Source: an uncultured Caproiciproducens sp. (lineage in GTDB: Bacteria; Bacillota; Clostridia; Oscillospirales; Acutalibacteraceae). Taken from it: a stretch of 64,000 nucleotides of DNA. The notes under the pieces were generated by a model that worked only from the letters and a program-made list of their open reading frames with translations, was not told the origin of the DNA and searched no databases. A program made the translations under genes and the position numbers. Below are positions 520 through 49,840 of the stretch, piece by piece. The stretch is taken from contig NZ_OY761810.1 in assembly GCF_963664915.1 (NCBI RefSeq), positions 572,661-636,660 of the forward strand, given 5' to 3'. Every line of letters starts with the position of its first letter. Position 1 is the first letter of the stretch.

Positions 520-538
520 GCGGGTATCTGCTATTTTT
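498..538 (+). terminator. Hairpin at the aroK stop codon with a trailing T run
   Basis: A 10-bp perfect stem (498-507 with 515-524, loop of 7) contains the aroK stop codon and is followed after a short gap by a T run (533-538). It probably ends aroK transcription before the convergent gene. Confidence 0.6.
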
Positions 539-1907
539 TATATGCCGTAGCGGCATAAGTTCGGTAGGCGTCCTTTCCGCTGCTCTTCGCAGCGTACATG
601 GCCGCATCGGCCTTTGCAAACAGTTCATGATAGTCCTTTCCGTCCTGCGGATAAAAAGCAACTCCTATACTGCCCGAAACCTTAAACGGCATGTCGTCCT
701 GCAGATGAGCATCGCGAAAAATAGTTTGCAGCACTTTCGCTTTCTTCATCACATCCGCAGATAAAATATTTTTTAAAAACACGACAAATTCATCGCCGCC
801 GATTCTGCCGATGATGTCGTCCTCACGAAACTGGTCTTTAAGTTTGGCGGAAATCACTTCAATCACCTCGTCACCCAGCAGATGGCCCAGATGATCGTTC
901 ACATCTTTGAAATTGTCGATATCAATCAAAAACAGAGCGTGCTGGCTCCCGGCTTCGCTTTGGCTGATGGCTTTGTTGACCAGATTGGTTGTGGTCACGT
1001 GGTTGTAAAGCCCGCTCAAAAGGTCGCGCTCTGCTTGTTCCTTTAAGCTCATATTTTCTTTTTTCTGCCTGTCAATATCGGATATAAAGGCAATCATTCT
1101 GATCGGGACTTCCTTCTCATCGCGGATTACCGTACTGCGCACCCGGTACCACCGGTAATCGCCGTTCACATCCTTGAACCGGTACTCGGGATTCTTGGGG
1201 TTCTCTCCGTTTATAAATTGGTAAATGTCATTCATAATGTGCGATTTGTCCTCTTCAAAAATAACATCCGAATGAAACAGCGCGTCTAACAGGCCGTCCG
1301 CATTTACTTCAATGCCGAATTTTTCTTTAAACGGGGGCGAACAGTAAAGATCCTGCGTTATAAAATTATAGTCACAAATCGGATCGGCCGCCTGCTCCAT
1401 AATGATGCGGTAGCGTTCCTCGCTTGCCGCAAGTTCCTGCTTTGCTTTTTTTATGGTCTCAAGCTGTTCCCTCTCCTTTTTGAGAGAACGCCGTTTCTCC
1501 GTAATATCCTCCAGGCTGCAGCAAAAATAATCAATACCATCGTCTGTCATAAGGCGTACACAGCAGTTGGTCCAAATATGGTGGCCGTCTTTCCTTATGA
1601 GCTTCAGTTCAAGCTTAATGAAAGCACATTTTTTTAAACGAACAGCCAGCTTACTCCAGTTGATCCGCTGTTTGCGGCTCAGCACAAAGTTGGATTCTTC
1701 ACCGCACAGTTCCGTAATTTCGCCGACTTCGTACCCAATCATTCTGTAAAATGAGTTGCTCGCGTATACAATCGTCTGCACGCCATCATTCCTACAGCAG
1801 AAAATACCGCTGCCAAGATGATTAATTATTTTTTCTAAGGTGGGTGGATTCACGGGGGTTTTGGGCACCGACGTCACTTCCTTCTGTAAAGACACTTGCT
1901 CATTCAC
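531..1907 (-). CDS. PAS-PAS-GGDEF diguanylate cyclase
   Basis: Probably makes the second messenger c-di-GMP from two GTP. The 458-aa protein has two PAS-like sensor regions (about residues 25-135 and 165-280), a charged coiled-coil linker between them and a C-terminal GGDEF domain (about 290-450). The motif RIGGDEF is intact near residue 370. An RxxD inhibitory I-site (REDD) sits five residues ahead of it, so product feedback is likely. No membrane segment is seen, so the sensor should be cytoplasmic. The start is a GTG with a poor ribosome site, so the N-terminus is uncertain. It converges on aroK and diverges from the aromatic operon. The sensed signal is unknown. Confidence 0.9.
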   Translation of the reverse strand: MNEQVSLQKEVTSVPKTPVNPPTLEKIINHLGSGIFCCRNDGVQTIVYASNSFYRMIGYEVGEITELCGEESNFVLSRKQRINWSKLAVRLKKCAFIKLELKLIRKDGHHIWTNCCVRLMTDDGIDYFCCSLEDITEKRRSLKKEREQLETIKKAKQELAASEERYRIIMEQAADPICDYNFITQDLYCSPPFKEKFGIEVNADGLLDALFHSDVIFEEDKSHIMNDIYQFINGENPKNPEYRFKDVNGDYRWYRVRSTVIRDEKEVPIRMIAFISDIDRQKKENMSLKEQAERDLLSGLYNHVTTTNLVNKAISQSEAGSQHALFLIDIDNFKDVNDHLGHLLGDEVIEVISAKLKDQFREDDIIGRIGGDEFVVFLKNILSADVMKKAKVLQTIFRDAHLQDDMPFKVSGSIGVAFYPQDGKDYHELFAKADAAMYAAKSSGKDAYRTYAATAYKK

Positions 1908-2016: not shown

Positions 2017-2045
2017 TTGACAGCGGTTCCAATCTGTATTATTAT
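2017..2045 (+). promoter_or_regulatory. Sigma-A type promoter of the aromatic operon leader
   Basis: TTGACA at 2017-2022, a 17-bp spacer and TATTAT at 2040-2045. Transcription would start near 2052, about 26 bases before the leader ORF and about 245 bases before aroF, leaving a long 5' leader. Confidence 0.8.
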
Positions 2046-2077
2046 ACAAAATAAGGTGAATATAAAGGAGTTACACA

Positions 2078-2197
2078 ATGAGCTTGACCGCATACACAAC
2101 ACGATTTACAGGATTTAGCTATCCCCGCTATTTTACGGCGTGGGATTTTTGTGCGTGCAATAAAATCAACTGTAAGCTTTTGTGTGAATGGATATAG
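2078..2197 (+). CDS. Candidate aromatic leader peptide, 39 codons
   Basis: A short ORF with an AAAGGAG ribosome site 7 bases before its ATG. It lies between the operon promoter and an intrinsic terminator ahead of the DAHP synthase gene. Nine of the 39 residues are aromatic (4 Phe, 3 Tyr, 2 Trp), with a dense stretch FSYPRYFTAWDF at residues 13-24. This is the layout of a ribosome-mediated attenuator in which stalling at Phe, Tyr or Trp codons reports charged tRNA levels. The composition, ribosome site and position are seen directly; the regulatory role is inferred. The C-terminal part also holds four Cys residues, for which I have no explanation. I do not recognise it as a described peptide. 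Confidence 0.65.
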   Translation: MSLTAYTTRFTGFSYPRYFTAWDFCACNKINCKLLCEWI

Positions 2198-2261
2198 CCG
2201 TATTGTAACAATAACCGGCTGATATTTTTAGCGGAGCTGACAGCAGCCCCGTTATTTTTTT
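2196..2261 (+). terminator. Two leader hairpins, the second an intrinsic terminator, ahead of aroF
   Basis: Hairpin 1 (about 2196-2219) pairs AGCCGTATTG with CAATA-CCGGCT, a 10-bp stem with a small bulge; it overlaps the last base of the leader stop codon. Hairpin 2 (2232-2251) pairs CGG-A-GCTG with CAGC-C-CCG around an ACAG loop and is followed by TTATTTTTTT (2252-2261), the form of a Rho-independent terminator 38 bases before aroF. Possible competing pairings are CGGCTG (about 2215-2220) with the 3' arm of hairpin 2, and CCGCTA (about 2124-2129) with TAGCGG (2229-2234). Their use is not shown. Confidence 0.65.
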
Positions 2262-2298
2262 ACTCATTTTTATCCGCTCAAATAAAAGGAGGAACGAC

Positions 2299-3324
2299 AT
2301 GATTATCGTATTAAAACCCGAATGCACCCCGCAGCAGCTCGCCGAGTTCACAGACTCGCTCACAAAAGAATACAGCATCAAGGTCAATACCTGGGTGGGA
2401 ACGCAAAGCACCGTGCTCGGCTTGATCGGCGACACCTCTGTGATCGATATCGACTTTATCGCCGCGCAGGATTTTGTGGAAAGCGTTAAACGGGTACAGG
2501 AGCCGTATAAAAAAGCCAACCGCAAATTTCATCCGGACGATACGGTCATTACCCTGCCGAACGGTCAAACAATCGGCGACGGCGGGCTTGCACTGATTGC
2601 GGGTCCCTGTTCCGTGGAAAGCGAAGAGCAGATCTGCGGCGTGGCCGAGCGGGTAAAGCTGGCGGGCGCGCAATTTTTGCGCGGCGGCGCCTTTAAACCG
2701 AGAACCTCTCCCTATGCCTTTCAGGGTTTGAAAGCTGAAGGCCTTAACCTTTTGAATGTGGCTAAGAAGAAAACCGGCCTGCCGATTGTAACGGAAATTA
2801 TGAGCATACGCCATATTGAGCTGTTCCTCAAGGACGACGTGGATATCATTCAGGTGGGCGCAAGGAACATGCAGAATTTTGAGCTCTTAAAAGAACTAGG
2901 AAAAATCAGAAAGCCCATCCTCCTTAAGCGCGGGCTGTCGAGCACAATCGAAGAACTTTTAATGAGCGCCGAATACATCATGTCCGGCGGCAACGATCAA
3001 GTCATTCTGTGCGAGCGCGGAATACGCACCTATGAAACGTACACGCGCAACACCCTCGATATTTCCGCGATTCCGATTCTAAAAAAGCTTTCCCATCTGC
3101 CCGTTCTGGTCGACCCGAGCCATGCTTCCGGCATTGCGTGGCTGGTGGAGCCGCTGGCGCTCGCGGCAGTTGCCGCAGGTGCCGACGGGTTGATTATAGA
3201 AGTGCACAACAACCCCGCCAAGGCGCTTTCCGACGGTGCGCAGTCGCTTACCCCCGACCAGTTTGACAAGGTGGCGGCACATGTTCTGACCGCCGCAAAA
3301 GCCTTTGGAAGAAAAGTGGATTAG
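2299..3324 (+). CDS. aroF: 3-deoxy-7-phosphoheptulonate (DAHP) synthase
   Basis: Condenses phosphoenolpyruvate and erythrose 4-phosphate, the first committed step of aromatic synthesis. The 341-aa protein is the type I-beta form. An N-terminal ferredoxin-like regulatory domain (about residues 1-70) is followed by the TIM barrel. GPCSVES begins near residue 102, then [41 protein letters not shown] and the metal-site region DPSHASG. In relatives the N-terminal domain mediates feedback by aromatic amino acids. A GGAGG-type site precedes the ATG. It is the first structural gene of the operon and sits directly behind the candidate attenuator. Confidence 0.96.
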
Positions 3325-3383: not shown

Positions 3384-4220
3384 ATGAACAAAAACATCGT
3401 CATTGTCGGACTGGGGCTGATTGGCGGCTCGCTTGCGAAGGCCTTTCAAAAATACAGCGAATGTACCGTAGCCGGAATCGACCGGGACCCCGGCGTAATA
3501 AAAGCCGCGCTTGACTGCGGCGCGATTGACAAAATCGGCGGCGACGAGGATATTCAAACCGCCGACCTGCTTTATCTGTGCCTGTACCCTCAGGCGGACA
3601 TCGACTTTGCCGCTTCGCACATTCATTTGATTCCCCCTTCCTGCATAGTAACCGACACCTGCGGAATTAAATCCGAAATCTGCACGCATCTTCCGCGCAT
3701 GGCGGTGGAACACGGGTTCACTTTTGTGGGCGGACACCCCATGGCAGGTAAGGAACAAAACGGATTCGCGGCAAGCGACGCGGAACTGTTTTTGGGCGCA
3801 AGCTACCTTATTGTTCCGTGCGGTGCGCCGCAGCCGGCCGTTGACCTGCTGAAAGCAGTCGCCGTCGAGCTTGGTTTCGGCGGAACGGTGGTAACTACGC
3901 CCGAGCACCACGACCAGATGATCGCGTTCACCAGCCAGCTTCCCCATGTACTGGCCTGCGCCTACGTAATGAGCCCGCGATGCCCCGAACACAACGGATT
4001 TTCGGCAGGAAGTTATCGGGATGTCTCCCGGGTTGCCAATATTAATGAACAGCTTTGGGCGGAACTTTTTATCGACAATCAAAAAGCGCTTGTCGGCGAA
4101 CTGGACACGCTCATCACAAATATAACCGATATTAAAGAGGCGGTAGCCAAAAGCGACGCCGAATTACTGCGCACTCTTTTGCGCAGAGGAAGACTGATTA
4201 AGGAAAGGCTTGGTGAATGA
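3384..4220 (+). CDS. tyrA: Prephenate dehydrogenase
   Basis: Oxidatively decarboxylates prephenate to 4-hydroxyphenylpyruvate with NAD(P), the tyrosine branch. The 278-aa protein has an N-terminal Rossmann motif GLGLIGGS at residues 9-16, a DTCGIKSE segment and the HPMAGKE active-site motif. It has no C-terminal ACT domain, so it is the short monofunctional form. It starts 59 bases after aroF behind a GGGGGAAG-like ribosome site. Its stop overlaps the aroB start by four bases (ATGA), which suggests translational coupling. Confidence 0.95.
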   Translation: MNKNIVIVGLGLIGGSLAKAFQKYSECTVAGIDRDPGVIKAALDCGAIDKIGGDEDIQTADLLYLCLYPQADIDFAASHIHLIPPSCIVTDTCGIKSEICTHLPRMAVEHGFTFVGGHPMAGKEQNGFAASDAELFLGASYLIVPCGAPQPAVDLLKAVAVELGFGGTVVTTPEHHDQMIAFTSQLPHVLACAYVMSPRCPEHNGFSAGSYRDVSRVANINEQLWAELFIDNQKALVGELDTLITNITDIKEAVAKSDAELLRTLLRRGRLIKERLGE

Positions 4221-5272
4221 TGGAACTGACTGTTAACGCTTCCAAAAGCTATCAGATACTCATTGAGCGCGGCTGTATGGATCAAATTGGTACGCGTGCG
4301 GGGAAGCTGTTCAAACCCGGTGCCAAGGCTGTTGTCATCAGCGACAGCAACGTGCTGCCGCTGTACGGCGGGCGTGTCATGGATTCGCTGAATGCCGCCG
4401 GTTTTTCCGCCTCCCTGTTTTCATTTCCGGCTGGCGAGGAAAGCAAACGCCTCTCCTGTATTGAAGAAATGTACGCCGAATGTGCAAGCCGTCGGCTCAC
4501 CCGCACCGATTTTATCGTCGCTCTGGGCGGCGGAGTAACGGGTGACATGGCTGGTTTTGCCGCGGCGACTTATCTTCGCGGAATTTCATTCATCCAAATT
4601 CCCACAACACTTTTGGCGCAGATCGATTCCTCGGTCGGCGGAAAAACGGGCGTTGATTTGCCGCAGGGCAAAAACCTAGTCGGTGCTTTCCACCAGCCGA
4701 GCCTTGTTTTGATCGACCCCGACACGCTTACCACCCTGCCGCCGCGGTATTTTTCCGACGGAATGGCAGAGGCGATTAAATGCGGCTGCATTAAAAGCCG
4801 TGAGCTGTTTGACATGATTATCCAAGAAGATATTTCTCAAAATATAGAAGAATTGATTTTCCGCTGTGTCGATATCAAGCGCGATGTAGTGGAACGTGAT
4901 GAGTTTGACACCGGGGAACGCATGCTGCTGAATTTCGGGCACACATTCGGTCATGCGCTTGAAAAAATGTACAATTTCAGCAAGCTTTCCCATGGAGAAG
5001 CGGTCGGAATCGGCATGGTAATGATGGCAAAGTGCGGAGAAAAAGCGGGAATTACAAAAGTTGGAACGACCAGTGAAATTATTGCCGCGCTGAAAAAATA
5101 CAATCTTCCCACAACGGATGACATGCCGTTAGACAAAATTCTTTCCGCTACCGTGCTGGACAAAAAGAACAGCGGTTCAATGATCGGCCTGATCATGCTG
5201 AAAGAAATCGGCTCCGGTTTTGTGGACTGGGTTACCCACGGCCGCCTTGTTGAACTGGCCGAGGTACTGTAA
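4217..5272 (+). CDS. aroB: 3-dehydroquinate synthase
   Basis: Converts DAHP to 3-dehydroquinate using NAD and a divalent metal, step two of the pathway. The 351-aa length is usual. Visible motifs are GGGVTGDMAGF, the PTTLLAQIDSSVGGKTG active-site stretch, the metal-ligand glutamate in GMAEAIKCG, NFGHTFGHALE and SHGEAVGIGM. It overlaps tyrA by four bases and aroA by one (TAATG), so the genes are probably translated as a coupled set. Confidence 0.97.
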   Translation: MMELTVNASKSYQILIERGCMDQIGTRAGKLFKPGAKAVVISDSNVLPLYGGRVMDSLNAAGFSASLFSFPAGEESKRLSCIEEMYAECASRRLTRTDFIVALGGGVTGDMAGFAAATYLRGISFIQIPTTLLAQIDSSVGGKTGVDLPQGKNLVGAFHQPSLVLIDPDTLTTLPPRYFSDGMAEAIKCGCIKSRELFDMIIQEDISQNIEELIFRCVDIKRDVVERDEFDTGERMLLNFGHTFGHALEKMYNFSKLSHGEAVGIGMVMMAKCGEKAGITKVGTTSEIIAALKKYNLPTTDDMPLDKILSATVLDKKNSGSMIGLIMLKEIGSGFVDWVTHGRLVELAEVL

Positions 5273-6492
5273 TGGCAAGCGTGAAAATCTTTCCGTCCGT
5301 CCTGAACGGAAGCATTCGGGTTCCTTTTTCAAAAAGTGCGGCGCACCGCGCGGTGATCTGTTCGGCGCTCGCGGGCGGTGAAGTCCTTTTTGACGGCGAA
5401 CCTTTAAGTGACGACATAACGGCGACCTGCCGCGCGATGAAAGCCATTCGTAACGGCGGCGAATCCATAAGGATTGACTGCGGGGAATCCGGCTCCACCC
5501 TGCGTTTTTTGATTCCCATCGCGGCGGCGCTTGGGGTGAAAACGGAATTCAGTGGAAGAGGCCGTCTGCCTCAGCGTCCCATCGGCGTTTACCTTGACTG
5601 TCTGCCGCGGCACGGCGTTTCGTGCATCACAGCGGGCGGGCTGCCCCTTACAATCAGCGGACGGCTGACCCCGGGAAAATTTATGCTGCCGGGAAACGTC
5701 AGCTCCCAGTTTATCACCGGGCTGCTTCTCGCGCTCCCCCTTCTGGACAGCGACAGCGAACTGACGCTGTCTTCTCCACTTGAAAGCGCAGGGTATGTCG
5801 ATATGACAATCGAAATTATGCGTGAATTCGGCGTCGTGGCAAAAGCAGCGGAAAACGGCTGGCAAATACCGGGCCATCAGTCGTATCGGCCAAAAGATTA
5901 CCGTGTGGAGCGCGACTGGTCACAGGCGGCATTTTTTCTGGCCGCGGGCGCGCTCGGCGGAACTGTTCGGCTGGAAGGCCTGAACCGAAATTCCTGCCAG
6001 GGCGACCGCGCGGCGGAACGTTTTTTGGGGGAATTTGGTGCGACAACAGAGTGGAATGACTCTGTTTTAACGGTTTCTCCGAATGAATTAAAAGGAATTG
6101 AGATTGACGCTTCGCAGATACCCGATCTTGTGCCGGTTCTGGCGGCGACCGCCGCTCTTTGCCGCGGGCGCACAAGAATTTTCAACGCGCAGCGGCTGAG
6201 AATCAAGGAAAGCGACCGCCTCGCCGCCATGGTCGACGGGCTGACAAGACTCGGCGGCAAAGTGACCCAGACGGATGACGGCCTTCTTATAGACGGCGTT
6301 GACCGGCTGCACGGCGGTGAGGTTGACGGCTGCAATGACCACCGCATTGTGATGGCTTTTGCAATTGCTGCACTAAAATCTGACGGCTGTGTCACCATCA
6401 GCGATGCGCAGAGCATCCATAAAAGCTATCCGGCGTTTTTCGAAGATTACAATCAGCTTGGAGGGAAAGCGAATGTCGTCAGCATGGGGTGA
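5272..6492 (+). CDS. aroA: 3-phosphoshikimate 1-carboxyvinyltransferase (EPSP synthase)
   Basis: Transfers the enolpyruvyl group of phosphoenolpyruvate to shikimate 3-phosphate. The 406-aa protein has the expected landmarks: PFSKSAAHRAVICSAL near the N-terminus, CGESGSTLRFL, NVSSQFITGLLLALP, LRIKESDRLAAM and DHRIVMAFAIAAL near the C-terminus. It is slightly shorter than the usual 420-430 aa but shows no break. It overlaps aroB by one base and aroC by about 20 bases. Confidence 0.97.
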   Translation: MASVKIFPSVLNGSIRVPFSKSAAHRAVICSALAGGEVLFDGEPLSDDITATCRAMKAIRNGGESIRIDCGESGSTLRFLIPIAAALGVKTEFSGRGRLPQRPIGVYLDCLPRHGVSCITAGGLPLTISGRLTPGKFMLPGNVSSQFITGLLLALPLLDSDSELTLSSPLESAGYVDMTIEIMREFGVVAKAAENGWQIPGHQSYRPKDYRVERDWSQAAFFLAAGALGGTVRLEGLNRNSCQGDRAAERFLGEFGATTEWNDSVLTVSPNELKGIEIDASQIPDLVPVLAATAALCRGRTRIFNAQRLRIKESDRLAAMVDGLTRLGGKVTQTDDGLLIDGVDRLHGGEVDGCNDHRIVMAFAIAALKSDGCVTISDAQSIHKSYPAFFEDYNQLGGKANVVSMG

Positions 6493-7570
6493 AACTGTTA
6501 AAATATCCATATTCGGCGAAAGCCACGGAAAAGCAATCGGCGTGGTTCTGGACGGTCTGCCGGCGGGAGAATTGATTGACTTGGACGCCGTTGCGCTGCA
6601 AATGAGCCGCCGCGCGCCGGGCAGGGATTCCACCAGCACACCGCGCAAAGAAAGCGACCTGCCGCAGATTGTAAGCGGAATCTACAATGACAGGACAACC
6701 GGCGCGCCGCTGTGCGCGCTCATTGAAAATACAAACACCAAATCCGGCGACTACGACAACCTTAGATGTGTTCCCCGGCCGGGTCACGCGGATTTCCCCG
6801 CGCATCTGCGCTACGGCGGATTTAACGACGTGCGCGGCGGCGGTCACTTTTCCGGACGGCTGACAGCCCCCCTCGTTTTTGCGGGTGCGGTCTGCCGCCA
6901 GATTTTACAGCGGCGAGGCATCGTGATCGGTGCGCATGTTTCTTCCATAGCGGACGTGAAAGACAGCCTTTTTGACCCCGTCAATATTCCGGAGGAGCTG
7001 CTGTCCGAACTGTCCTCCGTTTATTTTCCCGTTATCAATGAAACTGTAAAGCAGACCATGCGGGACAAAATTGAAGCCGCCCGTCTTGCGCAGAACAGCG
7101 TGGGCGGCGTGGTCGAATGTGCTGTAATCGGTCTGGAAGCGGGAGTCGGCGGCCCCCTGTTTGGGGGAATTGAACCGATATTTTCGTCCATCCTGTTTGG
7201 AATTCCCGCTGTGAAGGGTGTGGAGTTCGGCGCGGGCTTCAGTGCTTCCGAGCTTCTGGGCAGCCAGAACAATGACGCCTATTATTTTGACGGCGACACG
7301 GTAAAAACAGCAACAAACAACGCGGGAGGAATTCTCGGCGGTATTTCCACCGGTATGCCGATCGTGTTCCGTACGGCGTTTAAGCCCACACCATCCATTT
7401 CGCTGGAACAGGACAGTGTTGACCTGACTGCAAAGACCGGCGCCAAACTCAGCGTTCACGGTCGGCACGACCCCTGCATTGTGCCGCGCGCCGTACCCGT
7501 GGTGGAAGCCGCGGCGGCGATTGCGCTGATGAATTTAATTAATATTCAGACTGGGGGGAACGGATTATGA
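6473..7570 (+). CDS. aroC: Chorismate synthase
   Basis: Makes chorismate from EPSP with reduced FMN as cofactor. The start chosen is the ATG at 6473 (MSSAWGETVKIS), because GGAGGGA lies 6-12 bases upstream and the family begins at this point; an in-frame ATG at 6389 would add 28 unlikely residues inside aroA. The protein is 365 aa. FGESHGKAIG is near the N-terminus, followed by MSRRAPGRDSTSTPRKE, RPGHADFPAHLRYG and the C-terminal RHDPCIVPRAVPVVEAA. The stop overlaps pheA by four bases. Confidence 0.96.
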   Translation: MSSAWGETVKISIFGESHGKAIGVVLDGLPAGELIDLDAVALQMSRRAPGRDSTSTPRKESDLPQIVSGIYNDRTTGAPLCALIENTNTKSGDYDNLRCVPRPGHADFPAHLRYGGFNDVRGGGHFSGRLTAPLVFAGAVCRQILQRRGIVIGAHVSSIADVKDSLFDPVNIPEELLSELSSVYFPVINETVKQTMRDKIEAARLAQNSVGGVVECAVIGLEAGVGGPLFGGIEPIFSSILFGIPAVKGVEFGAGFSASELLGSQNNDAYYFDGDTVKTATNNAGGILGGISTGMPIVFRTAFKPTPSISLEQDSVDLTAKTGAKLSVHGRHDPCIVPRAVPVVEAAAAIALMNLINIQTGGNGL

Positions 7571-8691
7571 CTCTTGATGAAATCAGAGAAGAAATTGACG
7601 GAATCGATACAAAGCTTCTGCCCCTTTTCACTCAGCGGATGGAGTGCGCGAAAAAAGTGGCTACTGTTAAAAAAGAACTTGGCCTCCCTGTATTCAACGG
7701 CGAACGCGAACAGGACATTCTGGAACGCATCGGCGGTAAAGCCGGCGAGTACGGCGGAGAAGCGCAAATCCTTTACTCCAATATGATGGATATGAGCCGG
7801 GCGCTGCAATATAATTTGCTTGGCAGCGGCGGTGAACTGCGTGAAAACATCCGTGCTGCCGGCACAGCTCCGGAAAAGACGGACAAAATTGCCTGTTTGG
7901 GGGAAAACGGCTCATTTTCCCATGAAGCGCTCAGTTTGCTTTATCCGACGGCCGCGCCGCAGTTTCACCAGGGCTTTGCCGGAATTTTTGCGGCGGTGGA
8001 AAACGGAAATGCAGATTTGGGAATTCTGCCGGTCGAAAACTCATCCGCCGGTTCGGTCAGCGAGGTCTACGACTTAATCCTGAAATATCGGTTTTATATT
8101 GTGGCGGCAACAACGCTCCGCGTTCATCACTGCCTTGCGGCGGCTAAAAAAGTAGATACCCACAGCATCGGCACGGCCTATTCCCATCCGCAGGCGCTGT
8201 CCCAGTGCTCGGATTATATTACCAAAAACGATTTGCACGCCCTGCCCTGTTCCAACACGGCCATGGCGGCCCAGATGATCGCACAGCGCCAGGAGGCGGG
8301 CATTGCCGCCATCTGTTCGGAACATGCGGCAAAGGAATACAAGTTGCAGATCCTTGAAAGGGACATTCAAAACAGTTCCAACAACTGCACGCGCTTTATC
8401 GTCATCAGCCGCCGACTGTTCATTCCGGACTGCGCACAGAAAATCAGTCTTTGTTTTTCCCTTCTGCACAAAACCGGCACGCTTTACAGCGTACTTGCGC
8501 GTTTTGCGGCGCTTGGGCTGAATTTAACCAAAATCGAAAGCCGTCCGATCAAAGATAAAAATTTTGAATATGATTTTTACCTTGATTTTACCGGAAATGT
8601 GCGGGAAGAACAAACGCTTAACTTGATTTGCTCGCTTCATGACGAACTGCCACGCTTTTCCTTTTTGGGAAACTACACCGAAAACGATTAA
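7567..8691 (+). CDS. pheA: Bifunctional chorismate mutase / prephenate dehydratase (P-protein)
   Basis: Converts chorismate to prephenate and then to phenylpyruvate. The 374-aa protein has three parts. An AroQ-type chorismate mutase helix bundle (about residues 1-90) begins with DEIREEIDGIDTKLL. A prephenate dehydratase domain (about 108-285) holds GILPVENSSAGSV and NNCTRFIVI. A C-terminal ACT domain (about 295-370) carries the ESRP phenylalanine-binding motif, so Phe feedback on the enzyme is likely, on top of any transcriptional attenuation. It is the last gene of the operon and is followed by a strong terminator. Confidence 0.96.
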   Translation: MTLDEIREEIDGIDTKLLPLFTQRMECAKKVATVKKELGLPVFNGEREQDILERIGGKAGEYGGEAQILYSNMMDMSRALQYNLLGSGGELRENIRAAGTAPEKTDKIACLGENGSFSHEALSLLYPTAAPQFHQGFAGIFAAVENGNADLGILPVENSSAGSVSEVYDLILKYRFYIVAATTLRVHHCLAAAKKVDTHSIGTAYSHPQALSQCSDYITKNDLHALPCSNTAMAAQMIAQRQEAGIAAICSEHAAKEYKLQILERDIQNSSNNCTRFIVISRRLFIPDCAQKISLCFSLLHKTGTLYSVLARFAALGLNLTKIESRPIKDKNFEYDFYLDFTGNVREEQTLNLICSLHDELPRFSFLGNYTEND

Positions 8692-13834: not shown

Positions 13835-15136
13835 TCAGCGCTTGAGGAGACGCGGCTTCAAAATAATGTTCTCCGGGGCAACTGGTGAACATCCTAACTT
13901 TTGAGCAGTATCCTCCCCATAGTAGAAGCTGAACGCCTCGTAGGGACTGCGGCCGTTCAGCTTCTTTCTTGTGTAGGAATTAATGTGGTTCATCATCAAA
14001 AAGATATCCTTTTGTGTCAAATCATCAAAGGATGTACCCTTAGGCAAAATGCGTCGAATCAATTCATGATTCACCTCAATTGAGCCTTTCTGGTAAGGGC
14101 TGCTGGGGTCACAATAGAAAATGTGAGTGCGCAAAATGTCCTTTTGCTCCGGGCCATATTCGATTGCTTTCGGATTAGAAAACTCGCTGCCATTGTCCGT
14201 GAGGATGACAGGAAAAAGCTTTTGGAAACATTCCCGCCCAAGAATTCCGAAAAGAGCGTCCAAAAGATGCGTAACGGATTGTGAGGTATTGGCATCGCGC
14301 AAAAAGGCCAACATCAAGCTGGTGTCCACAAAATAAATCGTGAGCAAAACTTTACCGCCTTTATTTCCAATCACAGAGTCCATTTGGACTACTGGAGTAT
14401 CAGGGCGTTTTTCCATGAAATCTTTAAAGTCTTCGTAACTGCGGCTAAGACGACAACCGCGATCGACCTTAAATTCCGGTTTCTTGTAACGCGGACGATA
14501 CTTTACTTTTCGGGGTAAGTCAATATTTCTCACGTCAAACAGCGTGGCATCGATGTAATTGTAAAGCGTTTTCTCACTGCAAATCATTTCATCTGCATGA
14601 GCATAATAGATCTGATGCAGAGATTGACCATTCCGAATCAACGGCGTAATCAAAGCGTTCAGACGGGCAAGTTCGACCTCGTTTGAAAGAATTCCGCTCC
14701 GGGACTCCGATACAGCTGCTGAAAAGCGAGTGTGGGCATCCGCTGCGTCGTACCAGTGCTTTTTCAGAGTACACTTTCCAAGCGAAGAACAGCCGTTGCA
14801 CACATACGGCGGCTTTTGAATCACGGTGCAAACGTCCTCTTCAAACTCAGCACAGAGAGTGTTGCAGTTGCTGCACAGACTGCATTTGTAAGCAGACTGG
14901 TGGGTACAAGACTGTTTTCCGCAAATCATCTTTAATTTGCAAATGCTGCGTTTCTTGCAGGCATTATACGGATAGGCGGAATAACCGCTTTTCTTTTCAT
15001 AAGAATACTTCTTAATTTCCTTAGCAACTGTCGTACGGTCTTTTCCAATCTCTTTACTAATCTTTCCAAAAGACTTATGCTCTGTAAGTCCCTTTTCAAT
15101 GACAAGGCGGTCTTGATAGCTCATGAACTTCGACAT
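13835..15136 (-). CDS. IS30-family transposase
   Basis: A 433-aa DDE transposase that should cut and join the ends of its element. An N-terminal helix-turn-helix (about residues 1-60, RLVIEKGLTEHKSFGKISKE) is followed by a cysteine-rich zinc-binding-like region (about 60-130), then the catalytic core. The DDE triad is visible as the Asp in VVQMDSVIG, the Asp in ILTDNGSEF and the Glu in KGSIEVNHELIRR. AAGGAG precedes the ATG. No frameshift or stop is seen. The Cys-rich insert is shared with a subset of Firmicutes IS30 elements from memory. Confidence 0.93.
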   Translation of the reverse strand: MSKFMSYQDRLVIEKGLTEHKSFGKISKEIGKDRTTVAKEIKKYSYEKKSGYSAYPYNACKKRSICKLKMICGKQSCTHQSAYKCSLCSNCNTLCAEFEEDVCTVIQKPPYVCNGCSSLGKCTLKKHWYDAADAHTRFSAAVSESRSGILSNEVELARLNALITPLIRNGQSLHQIYYAHADEMICSEKTLYNYIDATLFDVRNIDLPRKVKYRPRYKKPEFKVDRGCRLSRSYEDFKDFMEKRPDTPVVQMDSVIGNKGGKVLLTIYFVDTSLMLAFLRDANTSQSVTHLLDALFGILGRECFQKLFPVILTDNGSEFSNPKAIEYGPEQKDILRTHIFYCDPSSPYQKGSIEVNHELIRRILPKGTSFDDLTQKDIFLMMNHINSYTRKKLNGRSPYEAFSFYYGEDTAQKLGCSPVAPENIILKPRLLKR

Positions 15137-19275: not shown

Positions 19276-19535
19276 AAAAAAGCCTTCGCCTCCATGTATA
19301 GAGGCGAAGACTTTACTTCGCGGTACCACTCTAAATTCGCCGATAAAACGGCCTTAATGTGCATCAAACAATGCACTCTCGCTTAACGGTGAGAAACCGG
19401 ACTTACCTACTTAACGACTGTTCAGCAGCCTGCTCCGGGGTGATATCATGCAAACACCGCACCGTCTTTCACCCTTCGACGGCTCTCTGTGAGCGGAAAG
19501 AATGCAGTCTGTCCCCATCTGCGCATTTTAGTTAT
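19276..19535 (-). promoter_or_regulatory. T-box leader of the ilv operon, apparent Ile (AUC) specifier
   Basis: On the minus strand the T-box AGAGTGGTACCGCG is present (about 19316-19333), followed by the terminator hairpin CTTCGCCTC/GAGGCGAAG and a T6 run (about 19276-19309). Stem I carries an AGAGAG element, and a GATATCACC segment near 19436-19446 fits a specifier loop with AUC (Ile) followed by A. Uncharged tRNA(Ile) would favour the antiterminator and let ilvB be transcribed. The T-box sequence and terminator are clear; the codon assignment is by eye. Confidence 0.9.
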
Positions 19536-49606: not shown

Positions 49607-49840
49607 AAAAAAAGACCGCCCGCGTCCCCAAATAGGGACGGAGGCGGTCATTATACCGCGGTTCCACTCCGTTTTATTACTCGTAGGCCCGTAACGGTGC
49701 CAGCCGTGCGGGGATACTTTATTTCCCCCCGCCTGCTTACGGATGCATTTCGCCGCCCGCCGTGCAAAAAGCGCTTCCAGCCCAGGCGCTTTCTCTCTGA
49801 TACCCGCGTTGCGGTTACTTCTTCCGCTCATCGCATTTTA
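49607..49840 (-). promoter_or_regulatory. T-box leader of cysE-cysS-ybaK, apparent Cys (UGC) specifier
   Basis: On the minus strand the T-box GGAGTGGAACCGCGG is present (about 49658-49672), followed by the terminator stem GACCGCC..../GGCGGTC and a T7 run (about 49607-49649). In stem I a GAAATGCATCC stretch near 49741-49752 fits a specifier loop with UGC (Cys). Uncharged tRNA(Cys) would switch the operon on. A weak promoter (TTGTCA near 49875-49880 with TATA-rich sequence after it) may serve it. Confidence 0.9.

Follow-up and report, generated by a model that had tools for sequence, protein, structure and literature searches.

In the trp, pheA and his attenuators of Enterobacteria, control codons lie within a short ORF, an antiterminator and a terminator exclude each other, and a protecting pairing acts when the ORF is untranslated. 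The first-pass annotation of the DNA analyzed here held that Firmicutes usually rely on T-boxes or TRAP; this needs qualifying, as leader peptides have been reported there too. Attenuation by a Leu-rich leader peptide has been proposed, with genetic support, for ilvD in the ilv genes of S. aureus (PMC5794164), a His leader peptide is predicted in bacilli on hisS and hisZ, genes that elsewhere are under T-box control (PMC2965389), and uORFC-13-1, found ahead of aroF in Acholeplasma, combines a uORF containing Phe codons with a base-paired element and a terminator (PMC8632094).

How does an aro leader of the Clostridia compare with these systems? The window, a stretch of 64,000 nucleotides from an uncultured Caproiciproducens sp., contains an aroF-tyrA-aroB-aroA-aroC-pheA operon preceded by a leader that the first-pass annotation had named a candidate leader-peptide attenuator. 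The recurrence of its ORF in relatives, the aromatic bias, the internal hairpin and the terminator support that candidate. We propose, with a probability of about 0.88, that the operon is controlled by a ribosome-mediated transcription attenuator of the trp/phe type; its response to tRNA charging in vivo is an inference.

All of the elements named in that annotation are present: a consensus promoter, a ribosome-binding site, a 39-codon ORF with nine aromatic residues, a hairpin at the stop codon, a terminator with a T7 run and a DAHP synthase gene downstream. On the forward strand, a sigma-70-type promoter (TTGACA-17-TATTAT, 2017-2045) matches the consensus at 11 of 12 positions and is followed by a Shine-Dalgarno sequence (AAGGAG, 2065-2070) and by the leader ORF (2078-2197), which starts with ATG at 2078 and encodes 39 amino acids with nine F/Y/W codons, MSLTAYTTRFTGFSYPRYFTAWDFCACNKINCKLLCEWI, a peptide that matched no Pfam family. 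The codon pair CGA-UUU (Arg9-Phe10, 2102-2107), identical in 37 of 37 close leaders, opens the aromatic cluster, and the proposed sensor codons are F10, F13, Y15, Y18, F19, W22 and F24 (2105-2149). Within the ORF lies a covarying hairpin, P1 (2121-2146), a candidate transcription-pause hairpin, and directly 3' of it a partly conserved U-rich tract with TGCGTGC (2147-2158) that may be a pause site. Three strands make up the proposed switch. Strand 1 (2071-2086) comprises the Shine-Dalgarno spacer, the start codon and codons 2-3, and was placed from the minimum free energy (MFE) fold of the untranslated leader. Strand 2 (2170-2185), the antiterminator 5' strand, lies within the last ORF codons and was placed by folding and pairing tests. 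Its partner, strand 3 (2231-2243), is the terminator 5' arm plus loop in the fold, which also shows a hairpin across the stop codon (about 2190-2227) enclosed by the antiterminator. The intrinsic terminator (2229-2261) consists of a stem at 2229-2254 (-12.6 kcal/mol) and a T7 run at 2255-2261; it was listed by a hairpin search run without a chance control, and was missing from a simple terminator scan of the window, probably because of an A.C mismatch in its stem. The region 2052-2272 folds with a z-score of -3.25, and 1 of 200 shuffles folded equally well.

The first gene of the operon, aroF (2299-3324, forward strand), encodes 3-deoxy-7-phosphoheptulonate (DAHP) synthase and is followed, at 3384-8691 on the same strand, by a prephenate dehydrogenase-like gene, aroB, aroA, aroC and a gene for prephenate dehydratase with a chorismate mutase domain. 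The matches to DAHP synthase, 3-dehydroquinate synthase, EPSP synthase, chorismate synthase and prephenate dehydratase exceed curated cut-offs; those to prephenate dehydrogenase and chorismate mutase fall below them. From these matches, the products of the operon are therefore Phe, Tyr and, for Trp, chorismate. As for the neighbourhood, a PAS-GGDEF (diguanylate cyclase) gene (531-1907, reverse strand) stands between a shikimate kinase-like gene (25-519) and the aroF leader (2017), and in three relatives (L021, L022, L024) an apparent shikimate kinase gene ends, as judged by eye, just upstream of aroF. A 433-aa ORF at 13835-15136 (reverse strand) resembles, again by eye, an IS30-type transposase. 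The genome encodes a second DAHP synthase (G000:C1:995620-996630, reverse strand; L002, L169) that is 49% identical; no such leader was seen there, and the sequence upstream of it looks by eye like a 5S rRNA gene.

We propose that the attenuator would work as follows. RNA polymerase would start at the promoter (2017-2045) and perhaps pause after P1 while a ribosome loads. When Phe-, Tyr- and Trp-tRNA are ample, the ribosome would reach the end of the ORF and cover strand 2; strand 3 would then join the terminator and transcription would stop. Shortage of one aromatic tRNA would stall the ribosome within codons 10-24, and strand 2 (2170-2185), left free, would capture the terminator 5' arm and loop (2231-2243), allowing the operon to be read. 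If the leader is untranslated, strand 1 would capture strand 2 and the terminator would form.

Is the leader ORF conserved? Relatives of the DAHP synthase were collected as the best 80 of 591 encoding loci, together with 29 additional loci from the window's family, in which 150 genomes were scanned and 99 had a match. From 66 upstream regions scanned, 37 non-duplicate close leaders were kept, with Arg-Phe forming part of the selection: L102 and L118 repeat L005 and L011, L032 and L036 were moved to the second set considered below, L028 and L031 were dropped because their matches lay in other frames or places, and the remaining regions had, by this rule, no Arg-Phe ORF. The 37 ORFs take the form M-x(5-13)-Arg-Phe-aromatic cluster. 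Counted from the CGA, 265 of 740 codons are aromatic in frame, the other two frames giving 78 and 156; in 35 of the 37 leaders no frame is richer than the true one. A search that made no use of Arg-Phe found a Shine-Dalgarno-preceded ORF with at least six aromatics in 15 codons ahead of aroF at 51 of 79 related loci (L014 was too short), as compared with 1 of 79 in antisense and 2.2% of shuffles. The first-pass annotation had staked its proposal on a conserved ORF and an aromatic bias in relatives, and this comparative search found both. Likewise, 28 of 40 further upstream regions of the family carry such an ORF with at least five aromatics, L208 being too short for the scan. Species known by name that carry such an ORF include Clostridium tyrobutyricum, C. 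ganghwense, C. thailandense and C. mediterraneense (example peptide FYFEFSFSWGYYYFSAGYLFCKK), and the peptide of L192, from another family of the order, appears intermediate between the two leader types (NRFFGYFNLGYYFSTGYFCCEK). A promoter-like site matching at least 10 of 12 positions occurs within 110 nt before the start codon in 35 of the 37 close leaders (3.4% of mononucleotide shuffles), and the hairpin search, with no chance control, found a terminator-like hairpin in 36, L107 being the one in which it found none.

The composition of these peptides bears on which amino acids are sensed. Phe and Tyr are both present in 33 of 37 close leaders, Trp in 23 and all three in 20, and the regular signals are thus Phe and Tyr, which qualifies the earlier idea that one peptide would integrate Phe, Tyr and Trp. 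A model of the leader gave a single strong match in its own genome (6.2e-17; 150 of 1257 candidates scored), the aroF leader itself; the next match (E 0.02) falls within an open coding frame and was rejected as a second copy. In a scan of 394 genomes of the order, 27 gave a match at E up to 0.01, of which 18 belong to the window's family and nine lie outside it. All nine were inspected: three are ahead of DAHP synthase (L192, L196, L198) and five look like chance. The ninth, a weak and ambiguous match (L194, around 1501, E 8.6e-4), has CGATTT, aromatic codons and a hairpin with a T run, but it lacks a usual start codon, and DAHP synthase was not seen downstream of it. Separately, in three records titled Treponema, Thermoguttaceae and Oligosphaeraceae (L050, L067, L081), aroF is close in sequence to the clostridial aroF genes, and these are perhaps mis-binned contigs.

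Across a 76-nt block of the 37 leaders, mean column identity is 53%, and CGATTT plus one T are the only invariant positions (seven columns); the picking of leaders had used the CG and TT of the hexamer, leaving the A and the last T free. Apart from the opening pair, 10 of the 89 Arg codons of the 37 leaders are CGA, and CGA is rare in the aro operon (4 of 102). Among the eight other Arg-Phe pairs of the 37 leaders, four also use CGA, which weakens them as an internal control for the idea of a slow CGA. In a wider set of 82 leaders picked by aromatic content, 42 Arg-Phe pairs read CGATTT and nine do not, and by eye these nine are not at the opening of the conserved cluster. The hexamer is also more often unpaired than its surroundings (0.56 versus 0.38, 0.25 and 0.29). 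The tRNA-Arg anticodons found in the genome are TCT, CCT, ACG and CCG; the tRNA search (150 of 173 candidates scored; 55 matches, one of which, L168, was not called as a tRNA) found none with TCG, so CGA would be read by I34. According to work attributed to Curran from 1995, I.A pairs reportedly decode inefficiently. Contrary to the idea of a slow CGA, in B. subtilis four CGA codons left lacZ activity undiminished (PMC10454642). Any special role of CGA-UUU is conjectural. As a speculation that we consider unlikely, the pair could be a sensitiser, in which the I.A pair of tRNA-Arg(ICG) slows the next codon and lets the first control codon sense small drops in Phe-tRNA; more broadly, and with the same low expectation, Clostridia might use a multi-residue leader peptide where Phe, Tyr and Trp have to be summed in one signal, and T-boxes for single tRNAs where they must be kept apart.

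Could the constancy of Arg-Phe reflect an arrest peptide instead? TnaC stalls the ribosome in response to tryptophan, and a conserved Arg-Phe nascent chain might similarly stall it on a free aromatic compound. The opening Arg-Phe is identical in 37 of 37 close leaders, where it formed part of the selection. However, the remaining peptide varies while its aromatic content stays, other Clostridia retain the aromatic run without Arg-Phe, and a constraint at the level of the peptide leaves the constant CGA codon for Arg unexplained. We consider an arrest peptide very unlikely, and favour aromatic codons that would be read out by attenuation.

P1 lies inside the ORF after the first aromatic codons and is predicted in nearly every close leader, with a mean z-score of -2.24 and values below -1.5 in 31 of 37. 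Over the 37 leaders, 76.5% of the cells are paired versus 62.3% after shuffling, and 38 cells are changed on both sides versus a shuffled mean of 13.8, a count reached in 0 of 500 shuffles. RNAalifold, run on the plain alignment of the close leaders, returned no consensus structure, which we think is due to bulges that shift the register; P1 was accordingly counted as a named hairpin instead of an RNAalifold consensus. P1 and the motif after it are candidates for a pause element that would synchronise the ribosome with transcription.

Which strand excludes the terminator? The first-pass annotation could not make out a convincing exclusive antiterminator by eye. We propose the pairing 2170-2185 x 2231-2243, mutually exclusive with the terminator, which is supported over the set and is not significant for the window alone. 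In the window, CTGT and AGCTT (2170-2179) are complementary to GAGCT and ACAG (2234-2243), and L103, L100 and L099 appear by eye to be variants in which strands 2 and 3 differ together. Support for this pairing over 36 leaders is moderate: the cognate pairing of strand 2 with the terminator arm ranks in the top 10% against non-cognates for 12 of the 36 leaders, where three control regions do so for 0, 2 and 6, and in the top 10% against shuffles for 14, where the controls do so for 2, 8 and 7. For reference, the terminator arms themselves reach this level in 25 (non-cognates) and 29 (shuffles) of 36. The window's own strand 2 pairing is at chance level, with 43% of non-cognates and 35% of shuffles equally stable. 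Two other partners were rejected: the P1 arms, in the best 10% of non-cognates in 2 and 6 of 36, and the stretch between stop codon and terminator, in 0 of 36. In five Clostridium loci (L045, L047, L051, L053, L066), CTAATGAG or a near variant close to the ORF end complements, by eye, CTCATTA of the terminator and is a candidate antiterminator; in the stall test described next, however, neither L051 nor L047 is conspicuous.

How would the position of the ribosome choose between these pairings? For each position, we calculated the free energy needed to open the terminator 5' arm before its 3' arm exists. In these equilibrium folds, which ignore co-transcriptional order, the mean cost over 36 leaders was 8.9 kcal/mol with the ribosome stalled at the Phe after CGA and 6.6 with a shuffled core (P = 8e-6, treating related leaders as independent, as do all P values here); taken one by one, 14 of the 36 leaders had no more than 10% of shuffles as high. 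With the ribosome at the stop codon the cost was 3.7 kcal/mol, a value that benefits from the shorter RNA; the stall cost exceeded it by over 1 in 32 of 36 leaders. The untranslated RNA is the longest, yet its terminator arm is freer, the mean being 4.3 kcal/mol versus 7.3 with the upstream part shuffled (P = 1.3e-8; 19 of 36 at or under 10%). Shuffling of the upstream part raises the cost, and therefore the region of the start codon tends to hold strand 2 when no ribosome is present. In the MFE fold of the untranslated window leader, strand 1 pairs with 2173-2187, which would hide both strand 2 and the start codon. For the window alone, the untranslated cost was 4.0 versus 6.0 shuffled, with 12% of shuffles as low, and in the stall test 12% of shuffles were at least as high. 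With the ribosome exactly at the window's stop codon the cost was still 7.1; it was 2.8-3.8 at codons 30-36 and 6.7-7.3 at codons 37-40.

A second set comprised 40 of the 43 non-close loci with at least five aromatics, L044, L058 and L069 being left out for doubtful starts. A terminator was found in 37 of the 40 and none in L033, L049 and L072; that of L041, probably misplaced inside the ORF, was nevertheless counted. In these 37 leaders of other types, the stall cost was 8.0 versus 5.0 shuffled (P = 1.3e-8), and the untranslated cost was 4.8 versus 6.8 with the upstream part shuffled (P = 5e-10). L051 behaved opposite to prediction (stall 1.8, shuffles 5.3). Along the ORF of the close set, sampled at every second codon, the cost stood at 7.9-8.3 even four to two codons ahead of CGA, a stretch with few aromatic codons. 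It was 8.4-9.4 over codons 0-16 after CGA, fell to 3.2-3.8 over codons 22-26 and rose again to 4.1-5.3 at codons 28-32. Aromatic codons are frequent at several positions up to codon 17, and their share does not exceed 0.09 over codons 18-27. Thus, the sensor codons sit where stalling would matter and end where it would not.

Taken as an attenuator, then, the leader has a short ORF preceded by a Shine-Dalgarno sequence, predicted to be translated and rich in codons for the end products, and an intrinsic terminator between the ORF and the first gene (36 of 37). Folding over the sets adds an exclusive antiterminator that depends on the position of the ribosome and a terminator that is favoured when the leader is untranslated. 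Alternatively, the leader RNA could be bound by a protein or small molecule, with the ORF incidental or a mere uORF; the conserved P1, the unpaired invariant CGAUUU and the partly conserved motif after P1 could form such a binding element. Against this, it is the frame of the ORF itself that carries the aromatic bias (265 versus 78 and 156), no Rfam family matched at E up to 1, and folding separates the stalled from the untranslated state in the way attenuation predicts. We rank a bound leader just behind an arrest peptide, as highly improbable. Control by a T-box or by TRAP, whose target leaders carry an array of (G/U)AG triplets, is the usual Firmicutes mode and would be in keeping with the 12 T-box matches of the genome, including those at tyrS, pheS and trpE, and with two relatives (L062, L030) that have a T-box directly ahead of aroF, but the window leader gave no T-box match at E up to 1, and we give this explanation next to no weight.

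Ribosome-mediated attenuation, the reading we prefer, would operate in a genome that also has T-boxes. The 12 matches, at E up to 0.001 and seven of them over the cut-off, precede tyrS, pheS, trpE, a gene for a TrpX-like transporter protein (below cut-off), cysE, leuA, acetolactate synthase, hisS, methylenetetrahydrofolate reductase, thrS, alaS and ileS; two lie in the window on the reverse strand, ahead of acetolactate synthase (19297-19530) and of serine O-acetyltransferase (49637-49840). With T-boxes on tyrS, pheS and trpE and a leader peptide on aroF, the cell would, on this reading, appear to monitor aromatic tRNAs one at a time through T-boxes and any of them through the leader peptide. 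The aroF leader itself had no match to the T-box family (RF00230), and Rfam 15 gave no family, including Phe, Trp and His leaders, for 1900-2400 at gathering scores or E up to 1. The leaders of 15 related loci likewise matched no Rfam family at gathering scores, so a new family could be proposed. No T-box was found ahead of aroF in the 15 leader-bearing loci scanned. Among 19 of the 22 loci that scored under five aromatics (without L025, L038 and L067), two have a T-box directly ahead of aroF (L030, 442-699; L062, 3665-3917), possibly a switch of sensor on the same gene.

If the proposal is true, leader-peptide attenuation, mostly taught as proteobacterial, commonly controls the aromatic pathway of Clostridia. 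A simple rule may then apply, in which a pathway common to several amino acids calls for a sensor able to respond to any one of them, and a genome that holds both kinds of sensor makes a rule of leader versus T-box directly testable. CGA-UUU, in turn, offers a chance to ask whether a synonymous codon tunes the sensor of an attenuator. In the open-access papers searched we identified no description of an aro leader peptide in Clostridia; an earlier mention is possible in a 2010 study by Lopatovskaya, cited in PMC4833913, which is said to treat attenuation across bacteria. As far as descriptions were found, the lineage and the operon are new for a ribosome-mediated attenuator, the kind itself being known from trp and phe.

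Finally, the aroF leader can be set beside the systems with which we began. With ilvD of S. aureus it shares a proposed leader-peptide attenuation in a Firmicute, although ilvD concerns branched-chain amino acids and another operon (PMC5794164). Similarly, hisS and hisZ of bacilli share a predicted leader peptide in Firmicutes and differ in sensing histidine and in serving aminoacyl-tRNA synthetase genes (PMC2965389). Like uORFC-13-1, the closest case that the literature offered and compared here by its description, the aroF leader has a uORF with Phe codons, a base-paired element and a terminator; uORFC-13-1 comprises 24 sequences, solely from Acholeplasma and environmental samples (PMC8632094). 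Unlike the trp, pheA and his attenuators, the aroF leader has its strand 2 within the end of the ORF, mixes aromatic residues, opens its cluster with CGA-UUU and matches no Rfam family. Like them, it combines control codons, an antiterminator and terminator that would exclude each other, and a pairing that would protect the terminator when the leader is untranslated.
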